Part shown: one piece after another, positions 1 through 51,500 of the stretch
Layout: each line of letters begins with the position of its first letter
Numbering within the stretch: position 1 is the stretch's first letter
NCBI GenBank assembly: GCA_030267965.1
Contig: BRYA01000023.1
Location: 1-64,000 of the forward strand
Direction of reading: 5' to 3'
DNA from: Triparma columacea
Lineage: Eukaryota > Sar > Bolidophyceae > Parmales > Triparmaceae
Length of the DNA stretch: 64,000 nt
Program-made: the position numbers and the translations under genes
The notes under the pieces: model-generated
What the model saw: the letters and a program-made list of their open reading frames with translations, nothing else
Databases searched by the model: none
What the model was told of the DNA's origin: nothing

Positions 1-2278
1 TTGAATGATGACTCCAGGTATGGCCTCAGCAAACATCTCCGTCATTTTCATACATGTCATCTCAAGCATTGGATCCAATGCAGTCCCAATTTCTTGTTTT
101 GAACCAGTTGCTACCCTGTAAGCATCAACTGCAGGCTTGTATCCAATCAAAATAGGAAACCACTCCCTAATCACTTTCAACATCCCCAGCTTCCTGTTTG
201 ATGCCCAAACAGTAAGCATCTGGATCCCAATTGACACTGCCAAACTTGCCAGAGAAGCCTTAAAGTACCCATACTTCTCATCACTCCAAAACATGGATGT
301 CACATAAACATCAGTCACTAGGTCTGTCATACTAGTGATAGCACCAACAGTCACTCTCATCTTCAACCCCCAAGGAACTTCCTCCAACAGCCTGTAGCTA
401 ATTGTCTCAAGCATAGGTCTGAACCATTCATACTCCTCATCAAGCTCCTGCAGTGCAGGGAAATTTAATATGAAGGCATCTACAGCAGCTGCTGGCTGGG
501 TATTGATAGCCAAACTCCTCGCTAGAGACTCTCCAATCTCCCTTCCATCCTTCTCCACCAGCTCTGCAGCCCTGCCTCCTACTTTCCTCAACTTACTCAG
601 CTTGTTTTTGACAACGGCGCCAAGCATTGGTGTGACAAACACATATTTCTCTGCAGCCTGTCTCAGAACATAGTTTGACCCTATAAATGACCTGACAGCT
701 TCCTCCTTTGTCATTCCCTTTTTCCTGAAACTCAATGCAACCAACAGTTGCTCACCCAACAACTTTCCTATTTTGTTGGGATCTAAATCTGCATAGTCTT
801 GTGTTGTATCATTCACAGCATTTGAAGTAACCAATGCACCTCCATTGTCCAAGCCAACACTTGCTCTCCTAATACTTGCTCTCAAAGCAACTGCTAAACC
901 ACCCTCAGCTTCAGCATCAACACTTGCTCTCCTAACACTCTCTCTCCTTCTAGCATCTCCATCTGATGGAATAAAATCTACAGGTACTTTAGCCTTCATC
1001 ACATCAGTAAACCACTCTGGCTGCTCCTCTTCCCATTTTGCCCAGTTTAAGCCAACCCATTTCTTAACTTCTCCTTCAATCGAGATCCACTGATGCCTTG
1101 AGTTATCTAAAACCATAAACTTTACTGCTTCACTTTCTTCTTCAAGGAAAAAGGCCATTGAATATTCCTTGCCTTTCTGTGTGCTCAAGAAGGTGTGCAA
1201 GTACTTCTTTTCAATGTTCAAAAAGAAGACAGCAAAGCATAGGGTAGTTATAAGTATGATATACTTCATAACCAATGATGCTATATCAATTGCCTTCTCA
1301 TCAACATAAGGTGAAGCTAAAGATATTGACACTGGCAAGCTTCCCATTGTCAACACAAAACCAAACAACCAGTACACTCCCCCAACTTCATTAGGATGTC
1401 GCAACTGCGCAAGTGAAGTGAAGTCTGTGATGATCTTTATAATCACTCTGAATAGTATACTAGTCACAATCTCTATGTTTCCTCCCAATGGCAACCAGTA
1501 CCAAAAGTCTCCCCTCAATATCTTAACCAACATGTACAGCCCAAAGTCGACTCCAATGTAAAGAAAGGCCCAACTACCTCCCATCAACCCAAGAAGAACT
1601 ATTGTTGTACACCTTATTAGAAGCATTCCTGCAGTGAATAGTAACATGGACACAAATGCTAATGTTCTCTTTCTTGCATTTGCTGGTATATAACCATAGA
1701 AATCAGGTGATTCTTCTCTGTTAGCAGGGTCTGTGTCCCAGTCATAACTAATTGTTGCAGAGGCAAAGCCTGTTGTAATTGCTGACACTGCAACTGAAAG
1801 CCATGCTGAAGTTCCAACCTCTTTGTCACTTGACACTATAGCCATAAGTTGGATGATCACTCCAGGGATTGCCTCAGCAAACATCTCAAGCAGTTTCATA
1901 ACTGTCAACTCATGCACTGGGTTCATTTTTGCCCCAACCTCTTGTTTTGCTCCAGTTGCAACTCTGTAAGCATCAACTGCAGGCTTAAACCCGATCAAAA
2001 TAGGAAACCACTCCCTTAGCACTCTCAACATCCCCAACTTCTTGTTTTGTATCCAAACCAAAAGCATTTGAATCCCAATTGACACTACTAAACATGCCAA
2101 AGAAGCCTCAAAGTACCCATACTTCTTTTCAATCCAAAACTTATACGTCACATACACATCAGTTAGCAAATCGACCATGCTTGTGGCAGCACCAAAAGTA
2201 ACCCTTGCCTTTAAGCCTAAGTTAGACTTCATAAATAGATTCATAACAATCTCCTCAAGCATTGGCCTTAACCACACT
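1..2278 (-). repeat. Internal coding duplication of the membrane module
   Basis: Two copies of the same module lie in frame in the START protein, offset by 1848 bp (ATG of MLETISYR at 414, ATG of MLEEIVMN at 2262). They share REWFPILIG, KPAVDAYRVATG, KQE-G and MFAEAIPGVIIQ at matching positions, and the + strand DNA around 120-250 and 1970-2100 is visibly alike. The DNA similarity suggests a fairly recent duplication or gene conversion within the gene; more copies may lie beyond the left edge. Confidence 0.85.
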
Positions 2279-5200
2279 TGTTCATTCATGACTTCTTGCA
2301 CTTCAGTGAATTGATTCGCCCACTCATCTACAGCATGAGCAGCAGTCAAAGTAGTCAACATTGTTACTGCCATTGCACTCCCAATCTCCCACCCCCTGGC
2401 TCCTTCCTCACTATTATCCTCTCCCTCATTTGTCGCTCTCCTTTTAAATTTGTTCATAACCAGAGCATACAGCAGTGTTGTCATGAAACCATGCTGTTCT
2501 GTAAGCTCTCTCAGTGCCCTATTGACGGCAATAAATTGCCTCACAGCCTCTACTTTACTGTCCCCAACATTCCTTTTCTTCACTTTCTCCATCAGCTGCT
2601 CTCCAAACCTCCTCCCATCCTGTTCCCCTGCTTCATTGCTCTTCAGCAGATTATCAAAGTAGTAAGCAGCATCAGTTGTCATGCCCAGGTGCTTAACTAC
2701 ACTCTGTTTGCTAACAGCTTTTCCTAACCCCTCCTGTCTAGTCATCATTTCAACCTCTGTCTTCATCTGGCCAGCCTCTGAGAACCTTACAGCTGTGAGA
2801 TGCCCTTTGTGTTCAACTGTGATTACAAGTGTCTTGTTGTTAACTCTGTGAATCACAAGCTGGGATTCAACTCCACTTTTAAGGTCCCAGAAGAATGCTG
2901 CAACTTCCTTGTGAGATGCTCTCGCAGTTGTTGAAGTCTTCCCCCATCCAATTCCCTTCTCTGCCTTTATCAATGTCTGCCCAGTCAATCCACTACTGAT
3001 CTCTTGAGCTCCGTCAATCTCGTCAAAGTGACTTTCAATCCCTGATGCTCCCTCAATCGCAATCTCCTCAAACTTTTCAATAATCTGCTGTTGCTTAAAG
3101 GCGTCAATCTCTTTGCTCTTGTCAAACCTTCTCCTTATGTGAATCATATTGCTGGCTGTCTTAATTGCCAGTCTGTTCATCAACCAGACTGGCACAGCTC
3201 CCTTAATGTCGTATCTTGAAGCATAAGAGGCACGTGTTTGTTTGATTGTCCCCCAGTTCTCCAAGCTTTCAAACAACCAAGTTGTCCTGAATGAAATTAG
3301 AATATTACGTCTTCCAAGTGGCATGTCATCCATCAGCTCAGTTGTATCTTCGTAGATAATCCATGCCTTATCTCCCTCCTTTTTCCAGATTATTTTGCTG
3401 TGTCCTTCCCTGAGTGCAAATCCAGCTCCAAAATTCTGGATTCGCAAATAGAGCTGCGAGTGATTGTTTAACCTTTCCACATGTTGTTTGACAACATTTT
3501 TATTTTTTAGGCCGGCTTGCCTCTTTCTGCTGTCCTTGATAAAGTCATATGCAGTACATTCTTCAACAGGTGCATCCAAAACAGCTTCGCAAAGAAGTAC
3601 TCCATGTGTGTCTCCTTCTAGATGTACAAACTTTGACTTGACCCTCTCATCAGGACTCTTCAGTTCATCAAAGTTTTCCTCGGCCTTGCACTTCTCATAG
3701 AACTCCTTCCCTTTCCTGATTGCATCCTCCTCCTCATCTGCATAATCTTGGGGTTCATTCTTGATAATGTTGGCCAGAGAGGACAGTGCACTTTCATCGA
3801 CCTCTTTGTCTCTTTCGAAACATGTTCTTAAGTCAGCAACTGCACCCAGGGCGTTTGGTATCTTTTTGTCAACAAGAGATTTAGGTAAGTAGCCTGACGC
3901 ATCAGCATGCTGCAGTAGCTCAATCTTACACTGAGGAACTCTACCAACATTTTCAATGTTAGTTGCAATAAATATGGCTTGTGTTGTTCCTCTTACGAAT
4001 GTCCCAGCACTCCCACCATAATCAACCTCATCTTTGAAAGGCCAGACAGCAACGGAAATGTTTTCTTGTACATTCTTTCCCAGTATCAGCTTGTTGACAA
4101 ACTCTCGATTGCTAATATACTTTGGAAATTTCTTCACGGTCGCAACCACTTTCTCGTTGGATTTGCCCTTGTATGTTTGTATCTCTAGTCTAGCCAAGTT
4201 CCCTTGCTCCCTGTGAATGGCCATCCTCTCCCTGCTGCAGAACTCAAAATACCAAGCAGCTGCTTCTTCTGCAGTGCAGTCAGCTTCACAATGAGCTCTG
4301 CCTAATGCAATGCTAGTCTCTCCCTCCAATTGCTGTCTATATTTGATCTCCATCTTCACTCCCCCATAAGGTGACTCAAGAGGCCCCCACCCTTCTTCAT
4401 CCTCCCCACCAAAGAGCTTCTCCAACTCCCAAAACACCTTCTTCTGGTCCTCCTCCAACTCAATCCCTTCCCTCATCCTCTCCACCAAGGCCCCCCTGAC
4501 CTCAGCATCAACATCCTTCCCGTTCCTCCTAAACTTCTCCTGCAACCTGTTGGCCTCAACAAGCTGACTACTTGCAAGGTAGTCAATTGCTTTGTCCATC
4601 AGTGTCTTTTGAAGGCCTTTGAAATGCAGATCGACAGTTTGAATGCGTGTCAACCTACAGACATTTGGAGCAATCTCCTTGAAGAAGTAGGCACCTGTAG
4701 TCTCTGCCAGCACAAATCCTTCCTTACTAAGGTCCTTGAAGCCTCCTCCTGGGTACTCTGTCAGTGGCACAAAAGCTAACACGTATGAAGTCAGGCCATT
4801 CTCAAGTTTGACTTCCTTCCACACAAACCAATTCTCAAATAGTCGATTGGTGGCGGCAGGGACCTTCACACCAAAATGTTGATGCAAGCTTCTAGTTCCG
4901 TCAACATCCTTCCTGATTGCCCTTGGCAAGTTCCCATCATTTTTGAAGTGCTTCTCAGATAGTGCAAATGTGTCAAGCAGAAATTGCTCTGCCAATACAC
5001 CCTTTGTTGACTTGTCCACAGTGACTCCAAAGGCTGCCCACACATTGTCCCCGTCTCTCCACAGGAACTTGTCAATGCCCTCCTTCAGTGTCCCCTTGAC
5101 TCTTTTCCCCTTTGTGTAAAGTTCCTTCTCTAGGCTCCCAACCCTCTCCAACATTGCCTCCTCCTCTATTCTCAGAGGCGGTGCCCTTGGCATGATCTCC

Positions 5201-6036
5201 ACCATAAAGTGTCTTTTCCTCCTCTTATCAATGACACCAGGCTGTCTGAACTTCTTCCTGACCTCCTCCATAATACCCTTTACTGCTGTATACGCAACCT
5301 TGGCGTCTCCCTTCTTGGTCCTGCCACTGTTCCTGCCTTCAACACTAGATCTCATGGATCTCACACTCTTAAAGCTTTTGATTGTGCGAACATCAACTTC
5401 TGGTTTCATCTCTGTTGCTCTCTCCTCTGCCTTAAGAGTTCCCACCATGGTGACTGCAGTTTGTCCAAACTCAAAGTCAGTGAAGCTGAGCTTGCCCTTA
5501 ATGACACCTCGTTTGACAGTCTTGGTCTTTATTGACGCTAGAATTTCGACAAGCTTTGCAGTTGCCTCATTAGAAAGATCGTCCTCATCAAGGGGTGCCA
5601 ACTCCATGATGTTCGTCGATTCGTTGGAAGAGATGACACTGACGTCTAGTAGAAATTCGACAAACTTATTCCCGCTGCCGTAGTGCTGCCAGTAGACGAG
5701 TCTGTGAGCGACTCCTTCCTTTTCGTCATACTCCTGGAGGGTCTTCCTTCGGAACTTGCCCTGCTCGCAATCGGTGAGGAGAAAGTCAATGATCTTGTCG
5801 CGCTCGTCGTGGAAGACACCAGCGAGCTCTATAACTTTCACATCGACACCGGTAGAGTTGTCGATGAGGCCTTCAACGGCTCCTCTCTCCTCAAGAAGCT
5901 TCACAAGTTTGCCTTGCTCGGGTCCAAGAGCTGAGTAATCGATATCTACGGGGCCATGTATTGTGGAGGGTGTGTGATTGGGGCTGGAGAGGGGCTGCGG
6001 GGAGTCTTTATTTCTGACGCCAGGATCTAATGTCAT
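1..6036 (-). CDS. Giant multi-START-domain membrane protein (partial, C-terminus off left edge)
   Basis: A single uninterrupted frame runs from the ATG at 6036 to the window edge (2012 codons, no stop, no intron). The N-terminal half holds several START-like lipid-binding regions (roughly residues 310-490, 555-740, 800-970 and 1020-1100); the second and third show the late-START pattern of a WxxW/Q-x-ADxxGYLP-like strand followed by a long amphipathic helix (LPKSLVDKKIPNAL, VPVWLMNRLAIKT). From about residue 1250 the protein turns into hydrophobic helices (for example VSIGIQMLLVWI) with a conserved block REWFPILIG that occurs twice. START domains bind sterols, phospholipids or ceramides; the likely role is lipid sensing or transfer at a membrane. 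The true C-terminus is outside the window. Substrate and location are not visible. Family call is from fold-level motifs, so the domain boundaries are approximate. Confidence 0.72.
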   Translation of the reverse strand, partial: MTLDPGVRNKDSPQPLSSPNHTPSTIHGPVDIDYSALGPEQGKLVKLLEERGAVEGLIDNSTGVDVKVIELAGVFHDERDKIIDFLLTDCEQGKFRRKTLQEYDEKEGVAHRLVYWQHYGSGNKFVEFLLDVSVISSNESTNIMELAPLDEDDLSNEATAKLVEILASIKTKTVKRGVIKGKLSFTDFEFGQTAVTMVGTLKAEERATEMKPEVDVRTIKSFKSVRSMRSSVEGRNSGRTKKGDAKVAYTAVKGIMEEVRKKFRQPGVIDKRRKRHFMVEIMPRAPPLRIEEEAMLERVGSLEKELYTKGKRVKGTLKEGIDKFLWRDGDNVWAAFGVTVDKSTKGVLAEQFLLDTFALSEKHFKNDGNLPRAIRKDVDGTRSLHQHFGVKVPAATNRLFENWFVWKEVKLENGLTSYVLAFVPLTEYPGGGFKDLSKEGFVLAETTGAYFFKEIAPNVCRLTRIQTVDLHFKGLQKTLMDKAIDYLASSQLVEANRLQEKFRRNGKDVDAEVRGALVERMREGIELEEDQKKVFWELEKLFGGEDEEGWGPLESPYGGVKMEIKYRQQLEGETSIALGRAHCEADCTAEEAAAWYFEFCSRERMAIHREQGNLARLEIQTYKGKSNEKVVATVKKFPKYISNREFVNKLILGKNVQENISVAVWPFKDEVDYGGSAGTFVRGTTQAIFIATNIENVGRVPQCKIELLQHADASGYLPKSLVDKKIPNALGAVADLRTCFERDKEVDESALSSLANIIKNEPQDYADEEEDAIRKGKEFYEKCKAEENFDELKSPDERVKSKFVHLEGDTHGVLLCEAVLDAPVEECTAYDFIKDSRKRQAGLKNKNVVKQHVERLNNHSQLYLRIQNFGAGFALREGHSKIIWKKEGDKAWIIYEDTTELMDDMPLGRRNILISFRTTWLFESLENWGTIKQTRASYASRYDIKGAVPVWLMNRLAIKTASNMIHIRRRFDKSKEIDAFKQQQIIEKFEEIAIEGASGIESHFDEIDGAQEISSGLTGQTLIKAEKGIGWGKTSTTARASHKEVAAFFWDLKSGVESQLVIHRVNNKTLVITVEHKGHLTAVRFSEAGQMKTEVEMMTRQEGLGKAVSKQSVVKHLGMTTDAAYYFDNLLKSNEAGEQDGRRFGEQLMEKVKKRNVGDSKVEAVRQFIAVNRALRELTEQHGFMTTLLYALVMNKFKRRATNEGEDNSEEGARGWEIGSAMAVTMLTTLTAAHAVDEWANQFTEVQEVMNEQVWLRPMLEEIVMNLFMKSNLGLKARVTFGAATSMVDLLTDVYVTYKFWIEKKYGYFEASLACLVVSIGIQMLLVWIQNKKLGMLRVLREWFPILIGFKPAVDAYRVATGAKQEVGAKMNPVHELTVMKLLEMFAEAIPGVIIQLMAIVSSDKEVGTSAWLSVAVSAITTGFASATISYDWDTDPANREESPDFYGYIPANARKRTLAFVSMLLFTAGMLLIRCTTIVLLGLMGGSWAFLYIGVDFGLYMLVKILRGDFWYWLPLGGNIEIVTSILFRVIIKIITDFTSLAQLRHPNEVGGVYWLFGFVLTMGSLPVSISLASPYVDEKAIDIASLVMKYIILITTLCFAVFFLNIEKKYLHTFLSTQKGKEYSMAFFLEEESEAVKFMVLDNSRHQWISIEGEVKKWVGLNWAKWEEEQPEWFTDVMKAKVPVDFIPSDGDARRRESVRRASVDAEAEGGLAVALRASIRRASVGLDNGGALVTSNAVNDTTQDYADLDPNKIGKLLGEQLLVALSFRKKGMTKEEAVRSFIGSNYVLRQAAEKYVFVTPMLGAVVKNKLSKLRKVGGRAAELVEKDGREIGESLARSLAINTQPAAAVDAFILNFPALQELDEEYEWFRPMLETISYRLLEEVPWGLKMRVTVGAITSMTDLVTDVYVTSMFWSDEKYGYFKASLASLAVSIGIQMLTVWASNRKLGMLKVIREWFPILIGYKPAVDAYRVATGSKQEIGTALDPMLEMTCMKMTEMFAEAIPGVIIQ

Positions 6037-6083
6037 GGACTGAGCGGCAGTGGCATGGCTGACAGTCGCAAGGCCGTTTTTAG

Positions 6084-6636
6084 AGTCTGCGGTAATGGCG
6101 ATTATGGTGTTTGTTAGTCAACATGACGAGATTTCCACGCGTGCTCCTCATTTCTGTGTAGCATATCAAGCGCTCCACGCGGTCGCCGGAGACGGAACCC
6201 ATGCGGTCGCCAGAGACAAAACCCATGCAGTCGCCGCAGAAGCGCCCCATGCGGTCGCCGCAGACGGAACCCACGCGGTGGCCGGAGACGGACCCCATGC
6301 AGTCGCCGCAGACCGGCGCGCGCGCACATGCACCGTGGCCGCCACCCGTCGAGCTCAACGCCGAGGGCCAGGCCCTCCGCGAACGGCTCCGCGCGTTCCG
6401 CACGCAGGCGGTGAGAAAAAAACTACAAAGTTTCAACGCGCCCTCCCGCAAATCTCCCGCTCTCCCCTAGAGTATTAAAATGTATTTTTCTTTTCCAGCT
6501 CTCAACGCACAACTCACCTCGTCCCGCGTCATCATGACCATATTCAGAGTCTGCGGTAATGGCGATTATGGAGTTTGTTAGTCAAAATGAAAAAGATTTT
6601 CACGCGCGCTCCTCGATTCCCTGTAGAATATCAGGT
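6084..6636. repeat. Duplicated upstream segment (6084-6170 and 6546-6636)
   Basis: Both stretches begin agagtctgcggtaatggcga, continue ttatgg-tgtttgttagtcaa and then share cacgcg-gctcctc and tgtag-atatca. They flank the 24-bp minisatellite as direct repeats. They may be promoter duplicates of the START gene or remnants of a mobile element. Confidence 0.75.
6176..6316. repeat. 24-bp GC-rich minisatellite, about 6 copies
   Basis: The unit reads approximately catgcggtcgccggagacgg + aacc, repeated about six times with point changes. Because 24 is a multiple of three, it creates spurious open frames on both strands (MRSPETKPMQSPQ.. and the antisense). It sits directly upstream of the START gene, between two other duplicated segments. 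Confidence 0.85.
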
Positions 6637-6849
6637 ATCTCCCCCCCTACGACTCCCTGAATCGAACTTACCTTGGTCTTCTCCAGCGTCCTCGTGAGAG
6701 CTTTTAGATTTAGAGACTGTGAAGGCGATATCTACGGGACCATGTATTGCAGAGGGAGTGTGATTGGGGCCTGAGGGGGGCTCGGAGGCATAGTTGGTCT
6801 TGCCGGCGTCATTCACGACTCCCGCATCTGCTTCAACCTCGCCCTCCAT
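6631..6849 (-). pseudogene. Truncated copy of the START gene's 5' end
   Basis: The 72-codon frame from ATG 6849 contains GPNHTPSAIHGPVDIAF, matching SPNHTPSTIHGPVDIDY near residues 18-34 of the START protein that begins at 6036; the DNA agrees at 6730-6785 versus 5941-6000. After this block the frame diverges (SKSKSSHEDAGEDQGKF) and soon stops. It looks like a broken tandem duplicate of the gene start. It could also be an alternative upstream exon, but the order of the repeated blocks argues for duplication. Confidence 0.55.
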
Positions 6850-7017
6850 GACGATCTTGATTGGGTGCTGAAAATCATGCGTTCGTGATCGACGTGCGAA
6901 AATTGACGGTGGAGCGGCGTTTTTTGGTGTGAGTGAAGAAATCGTAAGTTGGCATATTCGTAAGGTGAGCACATTATATTTTCCAAAATCAGAGAAATTT
7001 TGCTCATTTTTTCCCAT

Positions 7018-7583: not shown

Positions 7584-9491
7584 CTAGATCTCCCCCGTCG
7601 TCATTTTCGCGTCCCTCTCTTCCTCCACCTTCTTTTTGATGCTCTCGAAGCAGACGCCGAATTGTGATTTGATAACTTCCACGGCTGGCTCGATGATGCT
7701 TTCTTTGCTCGCCACTAGCTCCTCATATTCTGCTAGAGAAAGTCGACCGTCCTTGTCCTTGTCGAACTCGTCGATTGCCTTGTCATCGACGAGGTATGGG
7801 GCAATTTCGTCAATTAGACCCAATTTTTTGGCCTCCTCTGCAGCAGTGTTGATGTTCTGTGCGGTGACGGATCCAACACCCTGTTTGTCACTGAACACGA
7901 AGGCTAGGGTGGTCTTCTCTGCGACCGTCGAGCTCGACGACACGAGGGCGACGCCTTCCAAGAAATCCTTGAATTCTATGGCTCCGTTGTCAGCAGTGTC
8001 GAAGAAGGAGTAGAGCCTCCTCGTGTGCTCCTCCTCGGCGGTCTGGAGATGAAGGAGGGTTTTGAATGATTCGAGGCTGATGGATCCTCCCTTCTCCTTG
8101 TCAATTTCGGCGAATCTCTTGAGGAGGAGCTTGCAATCGTCCAACTCCATGCTGTACATCTTCTTCACCTCGCACATTTCGAACGTAGCGTCGAAGTAGT
8201 AAGGCTCTTTCCAGGACGCTCCTTCCATCCCTAGGAACATGTCGGGATAGCTATGCTCCGTGGTCGGCAAGTTCAGCTCCTTAGCCATGTAATCCCTAAC
8301 ATTTCTCGCATATTTTTCTGGGTCGGCCTTCTCCTCCTCGTTGGGCTCATACGCATCGAGAATCACTGCCTTCATCCGGTTGTGGAATTGGAAGATGCAC
8401 CTAATTAGGCTCATATCAGAGCCGTTGCGGCCCGAACACGCGCAATTATAGTACTCGTTGGGGTACGTGAGAAGTATGGGCGTGACGGGCTGGCCAGGGG
8501 TGAAGGCCCCCTTTTTGAATTGCATCACGCAGCCCCCATTGTTCGTTGTCCCCTCAGGAAAGATGCACATCCTTGGAAACTGCGTGTCGTTGCTGCGCAC
8601 CTTCATGGTCTCGATGACTTTCTTCCTGCGATGTAGGAGATAGGGTTGATGAGGGTGAGAAGCGGGAGGAGAGCAGCGTTAATATCTAGACAGACAACGC
8701 CGCGTCCATTCTCACCTTGAATAGGGCCCTTCTTTGGAGTTGTCTCTGTCAACAAAGATAGTCTGGGAGGGGGGGGCGAGGGGGGGGTTGTGTAAGGAAT
8801 GGTAGGGTGCGATGCTTCGCTCCGTCTCAGCATGAGCTTGTGTGTTGCACTCCTTTCCTCACCTGGAGGGCGATACAGAGGCTCCCAAAGATGGGAATAT
8901 TGCGGACTGCTGATTTCGAGATGGGCGAAGGTAGGAAGTACCATGTTATGAAGAAGCTATCCATTAGCCCAGTGTGGGGCGCGATGACCACCATCTGCCC
9001 CTTAGTTTTCTGGCGATCATCTGCGATGTAGGAGAGAGGGTTGATGAGGGTGAGAAGCGGGAAAAGAGAGCAGCGTTAATGTCAAGACAGACAGCGCCGC
9101 GTCCATTCTCACCGATCTCGATCCAGTGAAAGCCGGCACAGAAGAGCAGGCACCTCGAGAAGAACATAATTGGAGTCGCCACCCAGGTTCGCCACCTTGG
9201 CCACGGTTTCTGAGGGTCAGGGTCAACCCCGATGGCAGCGACCAGTCCACACAGACCACCCAACAGAAGGAACACAATGAAGAGGACGACTCGAATTAAG
9301 ACCACACCGGATAGTACGAGGGTCCAGAACTTGACCTTCTCGTACGTCGAGTCAGGTAGATCATTCAGGGCCCAATCCGGCACCTTTCTGAGCTTGGACT
9401 TCAATTTCACACATGGCACACCCGACCCTGGATCGTCAATATCCAGGGAGATCTGAGTGAGTTCGGTCGCGTTGTCAGGGTCATTGTTCAT
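7584..9491 (-). CDS. LPCAT-like lysophospholipid acyltransferase with EF-hands
   Basis: Four exons join in phase: 9491-9113, 9020-8863, 8762-8716, 8625-7584 (541 aa). The start at 9491 gives a cytosolic tail, then two hydrophobic helices (about residues 52-115). Exon 2 carries the acyltransferase HxxxxD motif as APHTGLMD (His142, Asp147), exon 3 the IFVDRDNSKEG motif, exon 4 the FPEGTTNNG motif (about 217-225), all PlsC/LPCAT hallmarks. The C-terminus has two EF-hand loops, DTADNGAIEFKD (about 403) and DKDKDGRLSLAE (about 480), as in LPCAT1/2-type enzymes. The protein should re-acylate lysophospholipids at the ER or a related membrane, perhaps calcium-modulated. Introns 1 and 3 are near-identical to each other (see separate entries). 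Confidence 0.88.
8626..8715 (-). repeat. Introner-like intron copy A (LPCAT intron 3, 90 nt)
   Basis: The intron begins GTGAGAATGGACGCGGCG, contains ATTAACGCTGCTCTC and ends CTACATCGCAG. It matches intron 1 of the same gene along its whole length with only a few substitutions and a 2-nt length difference, while the flanking exons are unrelated. Confidence 0.88.
9021..9112 (-). repeat. Introner-like intron copy B (LPCAT intron 1, 92 nt)
   Basis: Near-identical to the intron at 8626-8715: same 18-nt donor end GTGAGAATGGACGCGGCG, same CTTCTCACCCTCATCAACCC block and same CTACATCGCAG acceptor end. The repeat boundaries coincide with the splice sites, which is what an intron-creating insertion leaves. 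Confidence 0.88.
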
Positions 9492-33215: not shown

Positions 33216-35095
33216 TTAGGATCGTCTCATCTTTTTACTTTTTTTCATATTCTTCAAGATGACCTCCGCCTCAGTGCATATCACTACATCAAGCCTCCCC
33301 ACCTCTTTCTCCTTCTCCCCCCCCCCCACGACTCTCTGAACCGCCTTTTCCTTCCCCCTCTTTATAGCTTCTATCTTCCCTTCCTTAAACGCCCTTCCTA
33401 GTCCCCTGTACGTTAGCCACACGCCCACGGCCCTGGACTTCCAGTTACACTTCATCAGCGCAATCGTCAAGTTTGCGATGTTGATGTACCCCCCTTCCCT
33501 ATCCGCTGCCTTCTCCAGGGCCGCCACCCCCTCCTTTACCTTGCCCTCCATCATCAAGCCAACCCCCTCCCAACCCCCCACGACTCGACTCGCCTCAACC
33601 TTGCCCTCTGCTTCCAGCCTCTCCTTCAAGGTCTTAACAATTTCCCCCCACCCCTCCTTTCCGAACCCTTCCTTTGCCTTCTTGTAATCTTCGATCCACC
33701 CCCCCTCCGCCTCCCCGCTCTCCATGAACTTCCCCCATCCCATCCCGTCGATGTGCTTCACCCTCCCCCACTCCCCCGCCCCCGCTCCCCAGTTCCAGAC
33801 CCTGCCCTCTGCCTCCCTCGACCACCCCTCCTCCTTGATCCTACCCATGCACCACAGCCCGAGCTCCATGCCCTCCCCCCCCCCCCTGCAGCACGCGACA
33901 TTCCACGCCGCCACCGTCAGCCTGTGGTTGTCCCGCGATACCCCAGTGAGGGATTCTTCGTACGCCACTGCCTGCAACGAATCAAGAGACGGTTTAGGGG
34001 TGAGAACGGTGGCTGTGGTTCAGGGGGAGGAATCGCCTTGACTTGTCCAATATCTCACCTCCTCGAACGCCCTGCACGCCCCGCCCCTGTCGCCGAGGAC
34101 AATGCGGGCGCATCCCTCAAGGTTCTTGTAGGCTTTAGACGTTGACGCGCACCTGTACATTTTTGAGGGGGGTTAGAATCAAGCAAAGGGAGGGTGCATT
34201 TTTTCAACACACTGCGCTGTAACTCTGCTGTTGTTTGTTCCTCAGAATCCCCCTCACTCACCTCCTCACAACCTTGTAAATCTCCTCCCCATCCACTTCC
34301 CCTCCCTCCAACCCCCTCTTGACCAGCAAATAATCCTCCCCCCCCTCACCGCACTTCTTCGCCGTCTCGTCCCCCACCCCCCCATTCCCCATGTTCTTGA
34401 TGATCTCCCACCCCCTCCTCCATCCCCTCTCGTACTCCTTTACAACCTCCGCCCCCCCCCACCCCGTTCCCTCCTCCGGGAGCGCTTCAAGACCCCCCCC
34501 CCCCTCGCCCTCCCACCTCCTGAACAAAGCCAGGGCGAGGGGGGAGAGGGATCCGGGGTCGGGCTCGCAGGTTATGAGACGCTGGAGCTCGCAGTACACG
34601 GCCCCGTGCTTGCAAGCGGAAATCTTCGCGAGGAGGTAGTTGCTGGGTGGGTGGGTGTGGGGGGGGGGGATGTTAGGGGAGGGGGGGGGGGAGCTTGCTG
34701 GCGTTGAATCATTGCGTGTGTCTCCGAAACGCACGTCGCACATCATAAAGAGTTGTCGCTGTTGTTGTTGTTATTGTGGGTTATCTCTTCATCGGAACAA
34801 ACAACAACTCCCCCTCCCCCTCCCCCACTCACCTCTCCCCCTCCACCCCCATAACCTCGTCAACCTTCTCAACAAGCCCCAAATACCCATCTCTGCACTC
34901 CCCCCACGTCCCCCCTCCCTCCGCCACCATCCTCGCGACCCTCAAATCGTTCTCTCTCTCCATCTCACCCAAGCTCCTCACTCCTACTTCCCCCCCCCCA
35001 CCATAAACTCGACCAGCTAGGACCTTGTACGCCTCTGAGTGAAGACCAAAGTTCCACGATCGAAGCACGTCCTCTCTACTACCATCTTCACTCAT
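33216..35095 (-). CDS. Hypothetical helical (TPR/SEL1-like) protein
   Basis: Four exons in phase: 35095-34833, 34642-34262, 34152-34059, 33971-33216 (497 aa). No confident family. The chain is a succession of Trp/Gly/Ala-rich helices (SWNFGLHSEAYKVLAGRVYG, YKNLEGCARIVLGDRGGACR, VAAWNVACCRGGGEGMELGL, INIANLTIALMKCNWKSRA), a pattern typical of TPR or PPR-like solenoids. It has no signal sequence. Its first intron carries a repeat shared with SMC4. A basic C-terminus (KNMKKSKKMRRS) may be a nuclear or organellar signal. Confidence 0.62.
34153..34261 (-). repeat. Intron 2 of the helical gene, carries a family-2 terminal block
   Basis: Near its donor the intron contains TCTGAGGAACAAACAACAG, matching the right-hand terminal block ACTGAGGAACAAACACA of the SMC4 intron element. 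The rest is not obviously related, so this may be a decayed or truncated copy. Confidence 0.45.
34690..34803 (-). repeat. Introner-like repeat, family 2, inside intron 1 of the helical gene
   Basis: On the gene strand the intron (34832-34643) contains GTTGTTTGTTCCGATGA, then TTTATGATGTGCGACGTGCG and TTTCGGAGACACACGCAATG, then ATTCAACGCCAGCAAG. The same blocks, in the same order and orientation relative to transcription, occur in the SMC4 intron at 50288-50585. The best stretch of about 55 bp differs at four internal positions. Confidence 0.85.
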
Positions 35096-37526: not shown

Positions 37527-37880
37527 GACGTAAGATAAGAGCAGAGGGGTGGGTCAGTACGTGTGTGTGGACTAAAGGTTTTTCTTGAGCCAGACTGGAA
37601 TTTTCTCCAAACCCAAACAACTTCCGATCCAACCGTGCCCCAGAAAAGCATAATTTGTGTTATTTATTATCAAGAAATCAACTCTTTCATTCAGAATCGG
37701 CCACACAATCATGACAGCACCGCTTCCCGTCTGCTCAGCGAAGTTAAGCATGACCTGGCTCTATTAGTACTACGGTGGGGGACCACGTTGGAACACAGAG
37801 TGCTGATTTTTTTTTGCATTTTTTTTTGCATCTCAAATTTGTATTTCCTTTCGGACTTCTGTTCCCAAAGAAACTTTCTC
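37527..37880. other. Intergenic, nothing supported
   Basis: No motif-bearing frame. It holds the divergent upstream regions of the phosphatase and the first MYND gene; the duplicated promoter block begins at about 37885. Confidence 0.5.
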
Positions 37881-38010
37881 AGAGGTGGACTCCAATATAA
37901 GCACCTACACGACCCTTCTGCCTAAGTGGAGTAGCTTGAAGGCTTTGTAGATCACTTTCACATCGTAATTTGCCGCTATAAACTTACACTTGGGGTAGGT
38001 TCGCTCAAAA

Positions 38011-39156
38011 ATGGAATCGCAATCAGAAGTACAGTCGTCACACAATTCATCAGTATCTAGTTTGGACGAATTGACAGACGGTCAGCAGTTGTGCTTGAAG
38101 TGGGCTCATAAGCAAGACTGGGATCTCATCAAGGGGTATGCCAAGGAACATGGTCCTGAGGTTTTGTTAGGCGTTTATTCAGGAGTTGTTGATGAGCAAT
38201 TGACGGTAGTTTCAGTCCTCTATATCGCCTCATATCACCAAAATGTTGAGATGGTCAAGCTTGCCTTAGAGGCCGGCTTCGACAACAAGGAAGCCATGTA
38301 CGTGGCCGCAGATTTATCAATGAGGAAAAGTGACAATTCAACAATCTTGAGATTGATCTTAGAACATGGACTTGACCCTGATATGGACCTCCGAGTCGAA
38401 GGGGTGTTGAAACACTCTTCCAACCTTTTGTTGGCTGCTGCTGAAATAGGACACATAGATCATGCCATAGCACTTCTCGATCATGGAGCAAATGTGAACA
38501 AAACAATAGTGGTTCACTCTGGTGATGGACCTGTTCTTTCACCACTTACTAGTGCCTTCTGTTTTGGAGCACACGACTTATTTAGGCTGCTTTTCGCGCG
38601 CGGTGCTATCTCAACCACCAACATCGTGCTTTTAGTGTTTAGTCATTGCCTCACAGCGTGCAAAGGAGAACACCCTCACCTTAGTAGAGATGTCGCAATA
38701 AAGATGTTCGCAACATTTCTTCATCTCGGAAAGCCCGATTCCGACGTAGTTCAAGACACATTCAATTATTTCAATCCTTCCTATCACGATCCTACAATCA
38801 CCAACATCATGAAACATTACCTTCAAGGCCGTCCCTTCTGCTGTTTTGTTTGCGAGGCTCTTACAGCTAAGTCACGCGACAACCTCCTAATGTGTCCCTG
38901 TCGCACTGTCGCTTACTGCTCGAGGGAGTGCCAGCTCAAACACTGGAAGAAGCACAAGGTGCTATGCACGGGACCGCTGAACGAAAGGGGGGAGAGTGAG
39001 GCAATGGTCAAGAAAAGATCAAAGACAGGGAAGGGAGCGGCGGCGGGAGAAGCGGATGTGGTAGTAGCGGATGTGGGAGTAGCGGAAGGAGCAGGTGCGA
39101 CGGGGAAGAATGGCAAGAAGGGGAAGAAGGGCAAGAATAGTAGGGGTAAGAAGTGA
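38011..39156 (+). CDS. Ankyrin-repeat protein with C-terminal MYND zinc finger (copy 1)
   Basis: Intronless, 381 aa. The middle is built from ankyrin-like repeats (VSVLYIASYHQNVEMVKLAL, NLLLAAAEIGHIDHAIALLD, HGANVNKT). The MYND finger is complete at about residues 276-316: CFVCEAL..LLMCPCRTVAYCSREC..KHWKKHKVLC. The tail is a Lys/Gly/Ala repeat (GKNGKKGKKGKNSRGKK). MYND fingers recruit partner proteins, so it is probably a protein-interaction adaptor. This family is often expanded in stramenopile algae. The intact neighbour copy shows this is a local gene family. Confidence 0.9.
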   Translation: MESQSEVQSSHNSSVSSLDELTDGQQLCLKWAHKQDWDLIKGYAKEHGPEVLLGVYSGVVDEQLTVVSVLYIASYHQNVEMVKLALEAGFDNKEAMYVAADLSMRKSDNSTILRLILEHGLDPDMDLRVEGVLKHSSNLLLAAAEIGHIDHAIALLDHGANVNKTIVVHSGDGPVLSPLTSAFCFGAHDLFRLLFARGAISTTNIVLLVFSHCLTACKGEHPHLSRDVAIKMFATFLHLGKPDSDVVQDTFNYFNPSYHDPTITNIMKHYLQGRPFCCFVCEALTAKSRDNLLMCPCRTVAYCSRECQLKHWKKHKVLCTGPLNERGESEAMVKKRSKTGKGAAAGEADVVVADVGVAEGAGATGKNGKKGKKGKNSRGKK

Positions 39157-39455
39157 ACGAAACAATACAGTAATGCGGCGGCTACAAGCAATTTTTCAGA
39201 ATTCTATGTACATCAAATTGCTCATTTTTTAGCGATTAGCGTGAGAATGAACAACAACAATTTCATATTTCTTCATATTATTTTGTCCTCAATTTCGACT
39301 CCTGCTTCCAAGAAGAACTTTCTCTGAGGTTGACTCCAATATTAGCACCTACACGACACTTCTGCCTAAGTGGAGTACTTTTAAGGATTTAAAAATAAGT
39401 TTCACATCGTAATTTGCCGCTATAAACTTACACTTGGGGATAGGTTCGCTCAAAA

Positions 39456-40667
39456 ATGGAAAAACAATCAGAGGTACGATCGTCACACAATTCATCAGAG
39501 ACCACAAATGCAGTATCTAGTTGGGACGATTTGACAGACGGTCAGCAGTTGTGCTTGGTATGGGCTAGTGACCAAGACTGGGATCGCATCAAGGGGTATG
39601 CCAAGGAATATGGTCCTGAGGTTTTGTTAGGCGTTTATTCAGTGCTTGTTGATGAGAAATGGGAGGTAGGTTCAGTCCTCACACACGCCTCATATCACCA
39701 AAACATTGAGGTGGTCAAGCTGACCTTAGAGGCCGGCTTCGACAACAAGGCAGCCATGTACCAGGCCGCACAAATGTCAATGAGGAATAGTGACAATTCA
39801 ACAATCTTGAGATTGCTCTTAGAACATGGACTTGACAAACGTATAATCATCTAGTATTATGATCCGATTCTTTCTCTCTCTCCGATTGATTGACATGGAC
39901 TTGACCCTAATATGGACCTACGATTCGAAGGGTTGGTGGAATACAGTTCCAACCTTTTGATCCTTGCTGCTAAAAGGGGACACATTGATCAGTCCATAGC
40001 ACTTCTCGATCATGGAGCAAATGTGAACAAGACACTGGTTGACCCCAATGGAGTAGTTGCTTCACCACTTACATGGACTTTCTTTCATGGAGAACACGAC
40101 ATATGCAGGCTGTTTCTCACGCGCGGTGCTACCCCAACCACCAACGACGTGGATATTGTGTTTTATCATTGCCTCCAAGCGTGCAAAGGAGAAAGCCCTA
40201 GGCTTAGTAGAGATGTCGCAATAAAGATGTTCGTAACATTTCTTCATCTCGGAAAGCCCGATTCCGACGTAGTTCAAGACGAATTCAATAAAATCAATCC
40301 TTCCCAACGAGATCCTACAATCACGAACATCACGAAACATTACCTTCAAGGCCGTCCCTTCTGCTGTTTTGTTTGCGAGGCTCTAACAGCCAAGTCCCGC
40401 GACAAGCTCCTAATGTGTCCCTGTCGCAACGTCGCTTACTGCTCGAGGGAGTGTCAGGTCAAGCACTGGAGGGAGCACAGGGTGCAATGCACGGGACCGC
40501 TGAATGAAAGGGGGGAAAGTGAGGCAATGGTCAAGAAAAGATCCAAGACAGGGAAGGGAGCGGCGGCGGGAGCAACGGTGGTGGGAGTAGCGGAAGGAGC
40601 AGGTGCGACGGGGAAGAATGGCAAGAAGGGGAAGAAGGGTAAGAATGGTAGGGGTAAGAAGAAGTGA
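39456..40667 (+). pseudogene. Ankyrin-MYND protein, copy 2, interrupted by a 69-bp insertion with an in-frame TAG
   Basis: Residues encoded from 39456 match copy 1 (DDLTDGQQLCLVWASDQDWD) until EHGLD at 39836; then 69 extra bp bring the in-frame TAG at 39852-39854. Homology resumes at MDLRFEGLVEYSSNLL (39912) and runs to an intact MYND finger (CFVCEAL..CRNVAYCSREC) and stop at 40667. Apart from the insertion the reading frame is preserved on both sides (69 is a multiple of three). Either this is a young pseudogene or the insertion is removed or tolerated at RNA level. I give no joined product. Confidence 0.8.
39825..39905 (+). mobile_element. 57-bp insertion flanked by 12-bp direct repeats
   Basis: catggacttgac occurs at 39825-39836 and again at 39894-39905; copy 1 of the gene has it once (38367-38378 region). 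The 57 bp between (starting aaacgtataatcatctag, with a pyrimidine run tctttctctctctcc, ending gattgattga) have no counterpart in copy 1. This is the signature of an insertion that duplicated 12 bp of target. It has no GT..AG pair that would excise it cleanly. Confidence 0.8.
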
Positions 40668-40844
40668 ACGAAACAATGCAGTAATGCGGCGGCTCATAAT
40701 AATTTTTCAGAATTCGATGTACATCAAATTGCTCATTTTTATTGCGATTAGCATAAGAACAATTTCATACGCGTAAAACTTCCTTTCAGTTGGGGTTGAT
40801 CATTCTCCCCCCTTTCCTTGCCTCCTCCATTCTCTCCCAAATAA

Positions 40845-48577: not shown

Positions 48578-51500
48578 ATGGCTGAACCAAAGTCTCCAAA
48601 TGGCACTTCAGCCGTGCCAAGATTGATGATATCCAAGATGGTAAGACGATAATTCTATATATAGCCATAAATTTGTTTCTAAACTTTCAAAACCAACAAA
48701 ATTGACTCAACTTGTTCGAATTCGATTCAATCGATACTTCTCAACAATTACTCATTAATTACTCTCAATACACTCCTCACAACTCAATACACCCATACGA
48801 CCACTCAATACACCCACCCCCACCCCCACAGGTCGTCGAAAACTTCAAATCATACGCAGGAGTTAGAGAAATTGGACCATTCCATAAATGCTTCACATCT
48901 ATCGTGGGACCTAATGGATCAGGCAAATCAAACAACATTGATGCCATGCTATTCGTCTTCGGTAAAAAGGCTAAGAAGTTGCGCCTCAATAAGGTAAGAC
49001 TATCATGGGAGGAACAATAGAGGAACAAGCCAGGGACAAGCAAGGGACATTGCAAGGGACAAGCAAGGACACCAACAAAAGAGGAACAAGCAAAGGAGAA
49101 AACGACACCACACACAAATATTGATCAAATCGAGGAGGAGAAGAAGAAGTAGGGAAGAGGGACTACACACACACACACAACCAAGCCAAACAGAGCCTTC
49201 AACAAGCAGACACACACACCCAACTCACCTTCGCCCCCCCCCCCCCCCCTCCCAAACCCCCCCAACCCCCCAAACCCCCCAACCCCAGATGTCCGAGCTC
49301 ATCCATTCCTCCGATGCCTACACCGGGGCCAATGCCCTCCAGTTTGCCCGCGTGGGAGTCCACTTCCATGAGATCATCGACACCGGCGACGGCGACGCTG
49401 ACTACTCTGTCGTCCCCAACTCCCAGTGCACCGTCGAGCGCGAGGTCGTAAGGGGGGACCCTGAGATGAAGATCCCGGACAAGAGCAGCTACTACCTCAA
49501 CGGGAAGGTCGCCAAGTTCTCCGAGGTCGCCAAGTACCTGGGGGACAAGGGCATCGACCTCGACAACAACAGGTTCCTCATCCTCCAGGGAGAGGTGGAG
49601 ATGATCTCCATGATGCCACCCAAGGGCAAGACCGAGAACGACGAGGGCCTCCTCGAGTACCTCGAGGACATAATCGGGAGCAACCAGTACGTCGCTGACG
49701 CAGACGCTGCCATGAAGGTCGTGGAGGCACTTACGGAGTCCAGACAGGAGAAACTCAACAGAGTCAAGGCCGTGGAGAAGGAGAAGGACACGCTCGAGGG
49801 AGGCAAGATGGAGGCGGAGGCGTTCATGGGCAAGGAGAAGGAAATCAGGAAGAAGAAGAACGTACTCTACCAAATGAACATGGTAGAGGTCAACCAGGAG
49901 AAGGAAACCACCAAGGAGAAAAAGGAGGAGACCACAGCCAAGCTCGCAGCCGAGCAGGAGGCGCTGAAGGAGTCCACGGCGAGGCTTAACTCCATCGAGG
50001 AGGGCCACTCCGCCCAGGTTGCAGAGTACGAGGCCCTGGAAACGGCGCTTAAAAAGGTCAAGGACGAGTTCGCGAGCTACGAGAGGAGGGACATCAAAAC
50101 TCGCGAGGACGTTAAGTTCTCCAAATCCCAGATTACCACGCTTAAGAACAAAGCGAAGGAGGAAGAGAAGAAGGGGAGAGACATGAGGGAGAAAAGGGAT
50201 AAGGCGGAGAAAAGCGTACCGGTGCAAGAAAAGAATGTGGAAACGGCGGGGAGGAGCAAGGATCTGGAAGAGAAGAAACTTGAAGAGGTGAGAATTTGGG
50301 GGGGGGAGGATGTTGGCAAAGTTGTTTGAGATGTTGAATGTCGTTTGTTCCGCTGATGTAAATATACCACAAGAATGGAAGGTTTATGATATGCGACGTG
50401 CATTTCGGAGACACGCGCAATGATTAAACGCCAGCAAACAACCAAACGGCTGCCAAACGACCATACTGAGGAACAAACACATGACAACAAGTACATAAAT
50501 ACATATAGCTATCTATCTTATATTATTATACACACTCTAACACCTACGCGCCATCCACGTCGCACCACGATATCCCTCCCCTCAGATATACGAGGAGATG
50601 AAGGGTACCACCGCCGCCCTCAGGTCCGAGCTCGAGAGCAAGAACACAGAGCTGGCCCCAGTCAAGGAGGAGCTCAGCGTCTTCCAGGCCTCCCTGGAGA
50701 CCGCTCAAACCGAGTCCAACCTACTCTCCGACGCGACCACGCGCTCACGCCAGCAGCTGGAGGACGCGGAGACGGAACTTGAGAACCTCGACACCTTCCA
50801 GGCTGACAAGGAAGAGGAACTCAAGGAGGCCAAGGAGACCCTCTCCTCCAGCAAGGCCCGTCTAGGGGAGGCGGAGGAGGAGGAGGAAGAGCTCGCGGAT
50901 TCCGAGGTATCACTACAGAAGGAACACTCAACCCTTGTAGCAAAGGCCGAGGAGGCGAAGGCTAACCTACAGTCAGGAAACACAAGGTCACCGGCTGTCA
51001 GGGGTATCCTAAAGGCCGCAAGGTCAGGTGAACTACGCAACGCAGGCATCAAGGGGAGGCTTGGGGACCTTGCGACGATCACGGAGAAGTACGATGTTGC
51101 GGTTAGCACGGCGTGCGGGATGCTGGACCATATTGTGGTGGAAACAACTGCGGGGGCGCAAATGGCACTGAAGTTCTTGAGGAAACATGGACTGGGGAGA
51201 GCGAACTTTATACCGCTTGATAAAATGAAGAGAGGGAGCCACGATAGGGTGGTTGAAACACCTGAAGGGGCACCGAGATTGTTCGACCTTATATCACCGA
51301 AGGATGAGACCATTACGCCGGCGATCTTTCTAGGGGTTGGACAAACTATCGTCGCACCGGACCTTGAAACTGCGACAAGGTGGGCGTACGACTTCGGGAA
51401 AAGGTGGAGGGTTGTCACGGTTGGGGGGCAACTCATTGAAACCTCGGGTACTATGGCTGGGGGAGGTAAATCCACCAGGAGGGGGGGAATGAAACTCAGC

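Follow-up and report, generated by a model that had tools for sequence, protein, structure and literature searches.

In Oikopleura dioica, four near-identical intron pairs were reported among about 75,000 introns, each pair lying within one gene, and were ascribed to reverse splicing (PMC3879977). Introners, such as those of Micromonas (PMC3879977) and those surveyed in PMC9860276, resemble one another from splice site to splice site, and terminal inverted repeats (TIRs) and target-site duplications are common among them but not required (PMC9860276). Fungal introner-like elements decay into ordinary introns (PMC3443670, PMC3879977, PMC9860276), and a conserved secondary structure has been reported for them. 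For intron transposition, reverse splicing into the intron's own mRNA followed by partial recombination is one route under discussion, the process itself being unproven (PMC3443670).

The gene analysed here, a lysophosphatidylcholine acyltransferase-like (LPCAT-like) gene of Triparma columacea, compares with each of these systems in part. It resembles the Oikopleura cases in that it holds two nearly identical introns and such pairs are few; it differs in its lineage, the Parmales being sister to diatoms, and in that the 5' signature of the pair is common to a large degenerate class of introns. As in the described introners of Micromonas and PMC9860276, likeness spans the whole intron between its splice sites, the introns have sense orientation in genes and the class occupies many unrelated genes; in contrast to those introners, neither a multi-copy family at the BLAST level nor a TIR was found, and the near-identical pair occurs in one gene only. 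Similar to the fungal introner-like elements, the class lacks TIRs, is biased towards genes and is degenerating, but it shows no excess folding and belongs to another lineage and sequence. Within the openly accessible literature, judged by titles and the opening lines of abstracts, we found no published report of such a class in Parmales, and the Parmales genome paper does not mention introns or splicing in its main text (PMC10328945).

The window, a stretch of 64,000 nucleotides from the start of contig BRYA01000023.1 (C23), has a mean G+C content of about 52%; this value and the genome size of 37.85 Mb agree with the eight Parmales described in PMC10328945 (31.0-43.6 Mb; 49.8-52.4% G+C, apart from one at 64.8%). 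Parts of its first 6850 nt (1-6850) also occur where contigs C1 to C4 begin (L018-L021). Since the C2 sequence (L019) opens with CCCTAA repeats, this segment resembles a subtelomeric block, and it carries long open frames. A repeat of about 110-145 nt lies at 34694-34808 and 50343-50490 and was scored at 40 places genome-wide (216 candidates); in L025 its copies follow one another in tandem about every 295 nt, and as far as seen it is no intron family. A tandem duplication of about 85% identity (37849-40759) adjoins a 5S rRNA gene (37693-37811).

The LPCAT-like gene, which also encodes EF-hands, extends on the minus strand from start to stop codon over 7584..9491, as supported by Pfam, homologues and a gene finder. 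Its four coding exons yield a protein of 541 aa, with PF01553 at residues 128-245 and the EF-hands C-terminal of it. The closest named homologues are from Triparma strigata (58%) and other Parmales, and a further sequence, P0001, is 73-74% identical at full coverage and stems from a 1658-nt contig that is probably a transcript. Exon 1 (9113..9491, placed by protein alignment with homologues) is followed by intron 1 (9021..9112; 92 nt, phase 1), hereafter copy A, which sits at the junction TCG|ATG instead of the usual AG|. Exon 2 (8863..9020) and exon 3 (8716..8762), both aligned to homologues with their ends set by arithmetic, enclose intron 2 (8763..8862; 100 nt), called by the gene finder. 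Intron 3 (8626..8715; 90 nt, phase 2), copy B, lies at AAG|GAA and precedes exon 4 (7584..8625, including the stop codon), as delimited by the gene finder. By eye, introns of this genome repeatedly contain the motif GCTTCGCTC or the reverse-complementary GAGCGAAGC, in many cases close to the 3' end, for example at L014:1665-1772, at L022:7180-7334 and in LPCAT intron 2 (8862-8763).

The original prediction described introns 1 and 3 as near-identical from donor to acceptor with few substitutions, and the alignment bears this out. The two are 92.5% identical over 93 columns including the preceding exon G and differ by five substitutions and one 2-nt indel; the match is recovered in self-BLAST of the window (E = 1e-31), in which intron 2, located between them, has no similarity to either. 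The predicted lengths and order are likewise correct, and the likeness stops exactly at the splice sites, flanked by unrelated exons (TTCAAG and GATCG upstream, GAAGAA and ATGATC downstream of introns 3 and 1, respectively) and breaking the reading frame in different phases. As in introners, similarity thus reaches both splice sites of both introns and, as in the Oikopleura type of same-gene pair, whole introns recur at two sites with unrelated flanks. Of the 11 homologues aligned to the spliced protein, eight extend to the first junction (GFHWIEI/DDRQKTK) and 10 to the third (GPYSR/KKVIETM), and the alignment is ungapped at both. A simple gene finder, not given the sites and with a donor score that favours GTGAG, returned introns of 92, 100 and 90 nt. 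On the protein alignment, introns 1 and 3 are therefore predicted to be spliced in RNA.

A whole-genome DNA search (37.85 Mb) with the LPCAT intron, in which a missing match is no proof of rarity, listed two matches, both in the LPCAT-like gene and hence no near-identical third copy. The many copies expected of an introner family were thus not recovered; what stands of that claim is an intron copied from donor to acceptor and, as described below, a 12-mer common to introns of many unrelated genes. Five class introns used as a joint query against the whole genome likewise listed only themselves at E ≤ 10. With only two near-identical copies in one gene, the pair is not a recent multi-copy introner family at the BLAST level, and it falls short of a definition that asks for at least four BLAST-alike introns (E ≤ 1e-5) after removal of pairs in similar proteins. 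The screen described in PMC9860276 kept families of at least four introns and removed pairs in similar proteins, and would therefore drop it.

Both LPCAT introns open with the exact 12-mer GTGAGAATGGAC (minus strand, 9101..9112 in copy A and 8704..8715 in copy B, from a 12-mer search), which marks a class of degenerate introns that lie in sense in unrelated genes and that have, besides this 5' end, a CTAACGCAACCC block and a terminus resembling TCGTCGCAG. The exact 12-mer occurs at 258 genome sites compared with six for its reversed control, and at up to one mismatch at 1286 compared with 294. The reversed control ignores that GTGAG is a donor; chance from about 8,600 GGTGAGAA sites, a figure extrapolated from 26 in 114 kb, would give about eight exact 12-mers. 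Among 158 predicted GTGAG introns that were not picked for the 12-mer, AATGGAC comes next in five (two being the LPCAT pair), where 0.14 would be expected for independent positions. Within 3-kb loci, the gene finder called 24 of the 27 exact sites intron donors, in sense and at exon junctions. Thus, GTGAGAATGGAC opens introns in many unrelated genes, pointing to a wider set of related introns. A single pattern compared with viral contigs gave no matches, which is little informative about viral spread.

Loose patterns yielded 39 candidate class introns, of which two were left out and five had their acceptors set by hand. For the site comparisons, 39 exact 12-mer sites with flanks were set against 177 control introns, which are the output of our own simple gene finder, errors included. 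AG| precedes 36 of 39 exact class sites and 112 of 177 controls (Fisher P = 2e-4); among sites with G at -1 the figures are 36 of 38 and 112 of 147 (P = 0.01). Open, coding-like frames (coding score above 2, best of three frames) are joined by 29 of 35 class introns, while three of the remaining spliced flanks are open with lower scores and three contain stops. Ten spliced peptides, including four whose introns differ from the 12-mer by one letter, were scanned against Pfam: six matched at E ≤ 1e-3 and four did not. Matches above cut-off cross the class-intron junction for HSF DNA-binding, glycosyl hydrolase 31 (GH31), ephrin-receptor-like and EF-hand models, the junction-spanning EF-hand model sitting at its cut-off; a helicase C match crosses the junction below cut-off, and a U-box match just above cut-off lies beside it. 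In the list of 12-mer sites, class introns seemed to cluster in the same gene, and two or more per locus also occur in L040, L055 and L057.

The resemblance appears to extend beyond the splice signals. In 34 of the 39 exact sites (32 loci; excluding the two LPCAT copies, two introns of L034-paralogous genes and one without G at -1), conservation in register is found at +14 to +17 and, more weakly, at +13 and +21 to +23. The summed chi-square over +13 to +32 is 205; over 2000 resamples of the 177 control introns it averages 68 and never exceeds 115. In mutual likeness, class interiors score 15.5 on average against 14.4 for their own shuffles, the excess in control introns being smaller (14.3 against 13.9). 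The two ends also co-occur: of 36 introns whose 5' match is good, 19 end in TCGCAG, TCGTAG, TTGCAG or CCGCAG, as do 24 of the 133 whose 5' match is poor (P = 6e-5). The branch motif [CT]TAAC alone does not differ significantly between these groups (20 of 36 and 52 of 133, P = 0.09), and TAACGC in the expected stretch occurs in nine of 39 class and 11 of 177 control introns (P = 0.003). The joint pattern of AGGTGAGAATGGAC, 18-48 bases and TAACGCAAC has 10 genome matches and none in the control; TAACGCAAC is present in five of 177 control introns and is thus not confined to the class 5' end.

A profile of 89 positions (R3), built from 12 class introns with the LPCAT pair left out, matches over its full length in left-out introns of L051 (E = 3e-9), L014 (E = 2.7e-6), L034, L058 and L006, and over positions 1-80 in L022; the L014 and L006 introns were not chosen by the 12-mer. 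In six sources not chosen for introns (the window and L018-L022, 114 kb), R3 has three matches at E ≤ 0.02, two of them partial, a density that scales, as a rough figure, to about a thousand matches in the genome. The LPCAT introns themselves reach only 9.9 and 8.8 bits (E = 0.1 and 0.22), and each of the 13 left-out introns with an exact 12-mer scores higher (15.4 to 34.1 bits; 34 sources searched). Placed among 133 control introns, their branch block ranks 11th and 12th and their 3' end 21st (upper 9 and 16%); their high scores in R2, a 14-intron profile of which they are part, are built in by construction. Given an exact 12-mer but a poor fit to the rest of the profile, membership of the LPCAT pair in the GTGAGAATGGAC class is likely, though not proven, and is suggested mainly by the 12-mer.

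Paralogues bear on whether the class sites reflect gain or retention. A genome search with 11 of the 29 usable spliced peptides (775 aa; three of the 11 derive from introns that differ from the 12-mer by a letter) scored 58 of 187 candidates. In it the C5 gene is interrupted at its class intron, and all 14 listed paralogous places, which are 38-50% identical and in many cases near contig starts, cross the site ungapped. For the GH31 gene, the one listed paralogue, on C37, also crosses the class-intron site; the remaining peptides found their own gene alone at E ≤ 1e-5, with the ambiguous matches of repeat-protein peptides (C38) set aside. The LPCAT paralogue L029 runs in one frame across all three LPCAT intron sites, L032 crosses them in a weaker alignment, and the L031 alignment is fragmented. 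Class-like introns (GTGAGAATGGGC) were observed in L031 (C195) and L032 (C340), at positions unlike those of the window gene. Together, the alignments favour gain over retention at the class-intron sites, with loss in the paralogues possible because those compared are old (about 29-50% identity).

Both LPCAT introns (8626-8716 and 9021-9113, minus) fold such that the donor GGUGAGAA pairs with UUCUCACC, hiding the whole 5' splice site, with a z-score of about -3.4, or about -1.9 when the inside alone is shuffled. As 10 of 100 sampled introns of this genome have z below -2.5, the hairpin does not exceed what ordinary introns show here, and a regulatory role would be speculative. Its presence in both introns counts as one observation, being shared by descent, and the hairpin was rejected as a class trait (mean z -0.05 against shuffles over 31 class introns, LPCAT included). 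We also dropped a reading of the GGTGAGAA...TTCTCACC pairing as a TIR, as it occurs at background level: 15 places genome-wide compared with four in outward order, where about 9-13 are expected by arithmetic from the GGTGAGAA density (26 in 114 kb, four of them LPCAT's). In the 114-kb sample, an 8-nt test gave four inward counts over both strands, as many as the two LPCAT introns alone supply, and no outward ones.

We give about an even chance to the explanation that a single spliceosomal intron is present twice, as introns 1 and 3, and that one of the two is a recent gain through intron transposition within the gene itself. Exact ends at splice sites, sense orientation, location in the same gene in different phase, and the lack of a third copy and of end repeats all fit such intron transposition. 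By analogy with the described cases, the route would probably be reverse splicing: an excised intron RNA would insert into another site of the same transcript, the product would be reverse-transcribed, and the cDNA would recombine with the gene over a short stretch, so that intron 2 stays. Intron 3 may be the source, as it sits at AG| like 36 of the 39 class sites and intron 1 at CG|, a weak indication. The same-gene copy is rare but of a kind already known. The earlier claim of a recent gain by copying holds for the whole-intron copy, the recency being part of this evenly balanced explanation.

Gene conversion offers a different history, in which both sites received old-class introns earlier and were later kept or made alike. 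That both LPCAT introns open with the class 12-mer, lie about 300 nt apart and have counterparts in other loci with several class introns would suit it. Conversion, however, requires initial similarity, and the same-locus class introns of L040, L055 and L057 are not comparably alike by eye; moreover, the alike stretch stops exactly at both splice sites, and we consider this history rather doubtful.

Local hopping of a DNA-transposing introner, a non-autonomous element, into the same gene would agree with the conclusion of PMC9860276 that most introners spread as DNA. The AG| preference of class sites could hide a 2-bp AG target duplication, as the two are indistinguishable at splice sites, and GATCG is found on both sides of intron 1, but offset by 2 nt and within conserved codons; no target duplication adjoining both LPCAT copies was seen by eye. 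Neither LPCAT intron carries a terminal inverted repeat: the 8-nt stretch complementary to the 5' end sits 28 nt inside the 3' end, and the GGTGAGAA pairing is close to the expectation from density. As the class, in addition, folds no better than shuffles and occupies exon junctions in sense at 24 of 27 sites, we regard DNA transposition as unlikely. It is quite improbable that the class represents extended splicing signals that are not mobile and the LPCAT pair a one-off duplication, for example by template-switch repair: five class introns have no BLAST-alike partner, conservation is strongest at the 5' end and around the branch site, and the pair fits the class profile poorly, but positions +9 to +12, +13 to +17 and +21 to +23, which lie outside the usual U1/U6 pairing, are conserved in register, left-out introns of five loci align over all R3 positions, and 5' and 3' features co-occur.

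Under the explanation by intron transposition, the copied LPCAT intron is probably derived from an older introner-like class that has since degenerated. We tentatively propose, as a possibility, that the Parmales lineage underwent a large introner-like wave of gain, driven by RNA-level reverse splicing of sense-oriented introns that lacked terminal repeats, of which some thousand degenerate introns would be left and the LPCAT pair would be a rare late copying event in one gene. The mode of spliceosomal intron gain is an old question, and source and copy can rarely both be identified. A same-gene pair with different phases, exact ends and a retained intron 2 allows the model of reverse splicing and partial recombination to be examined cleanly, and the degenerate class suggests that the sister group of diatoms gained introns in a wave.
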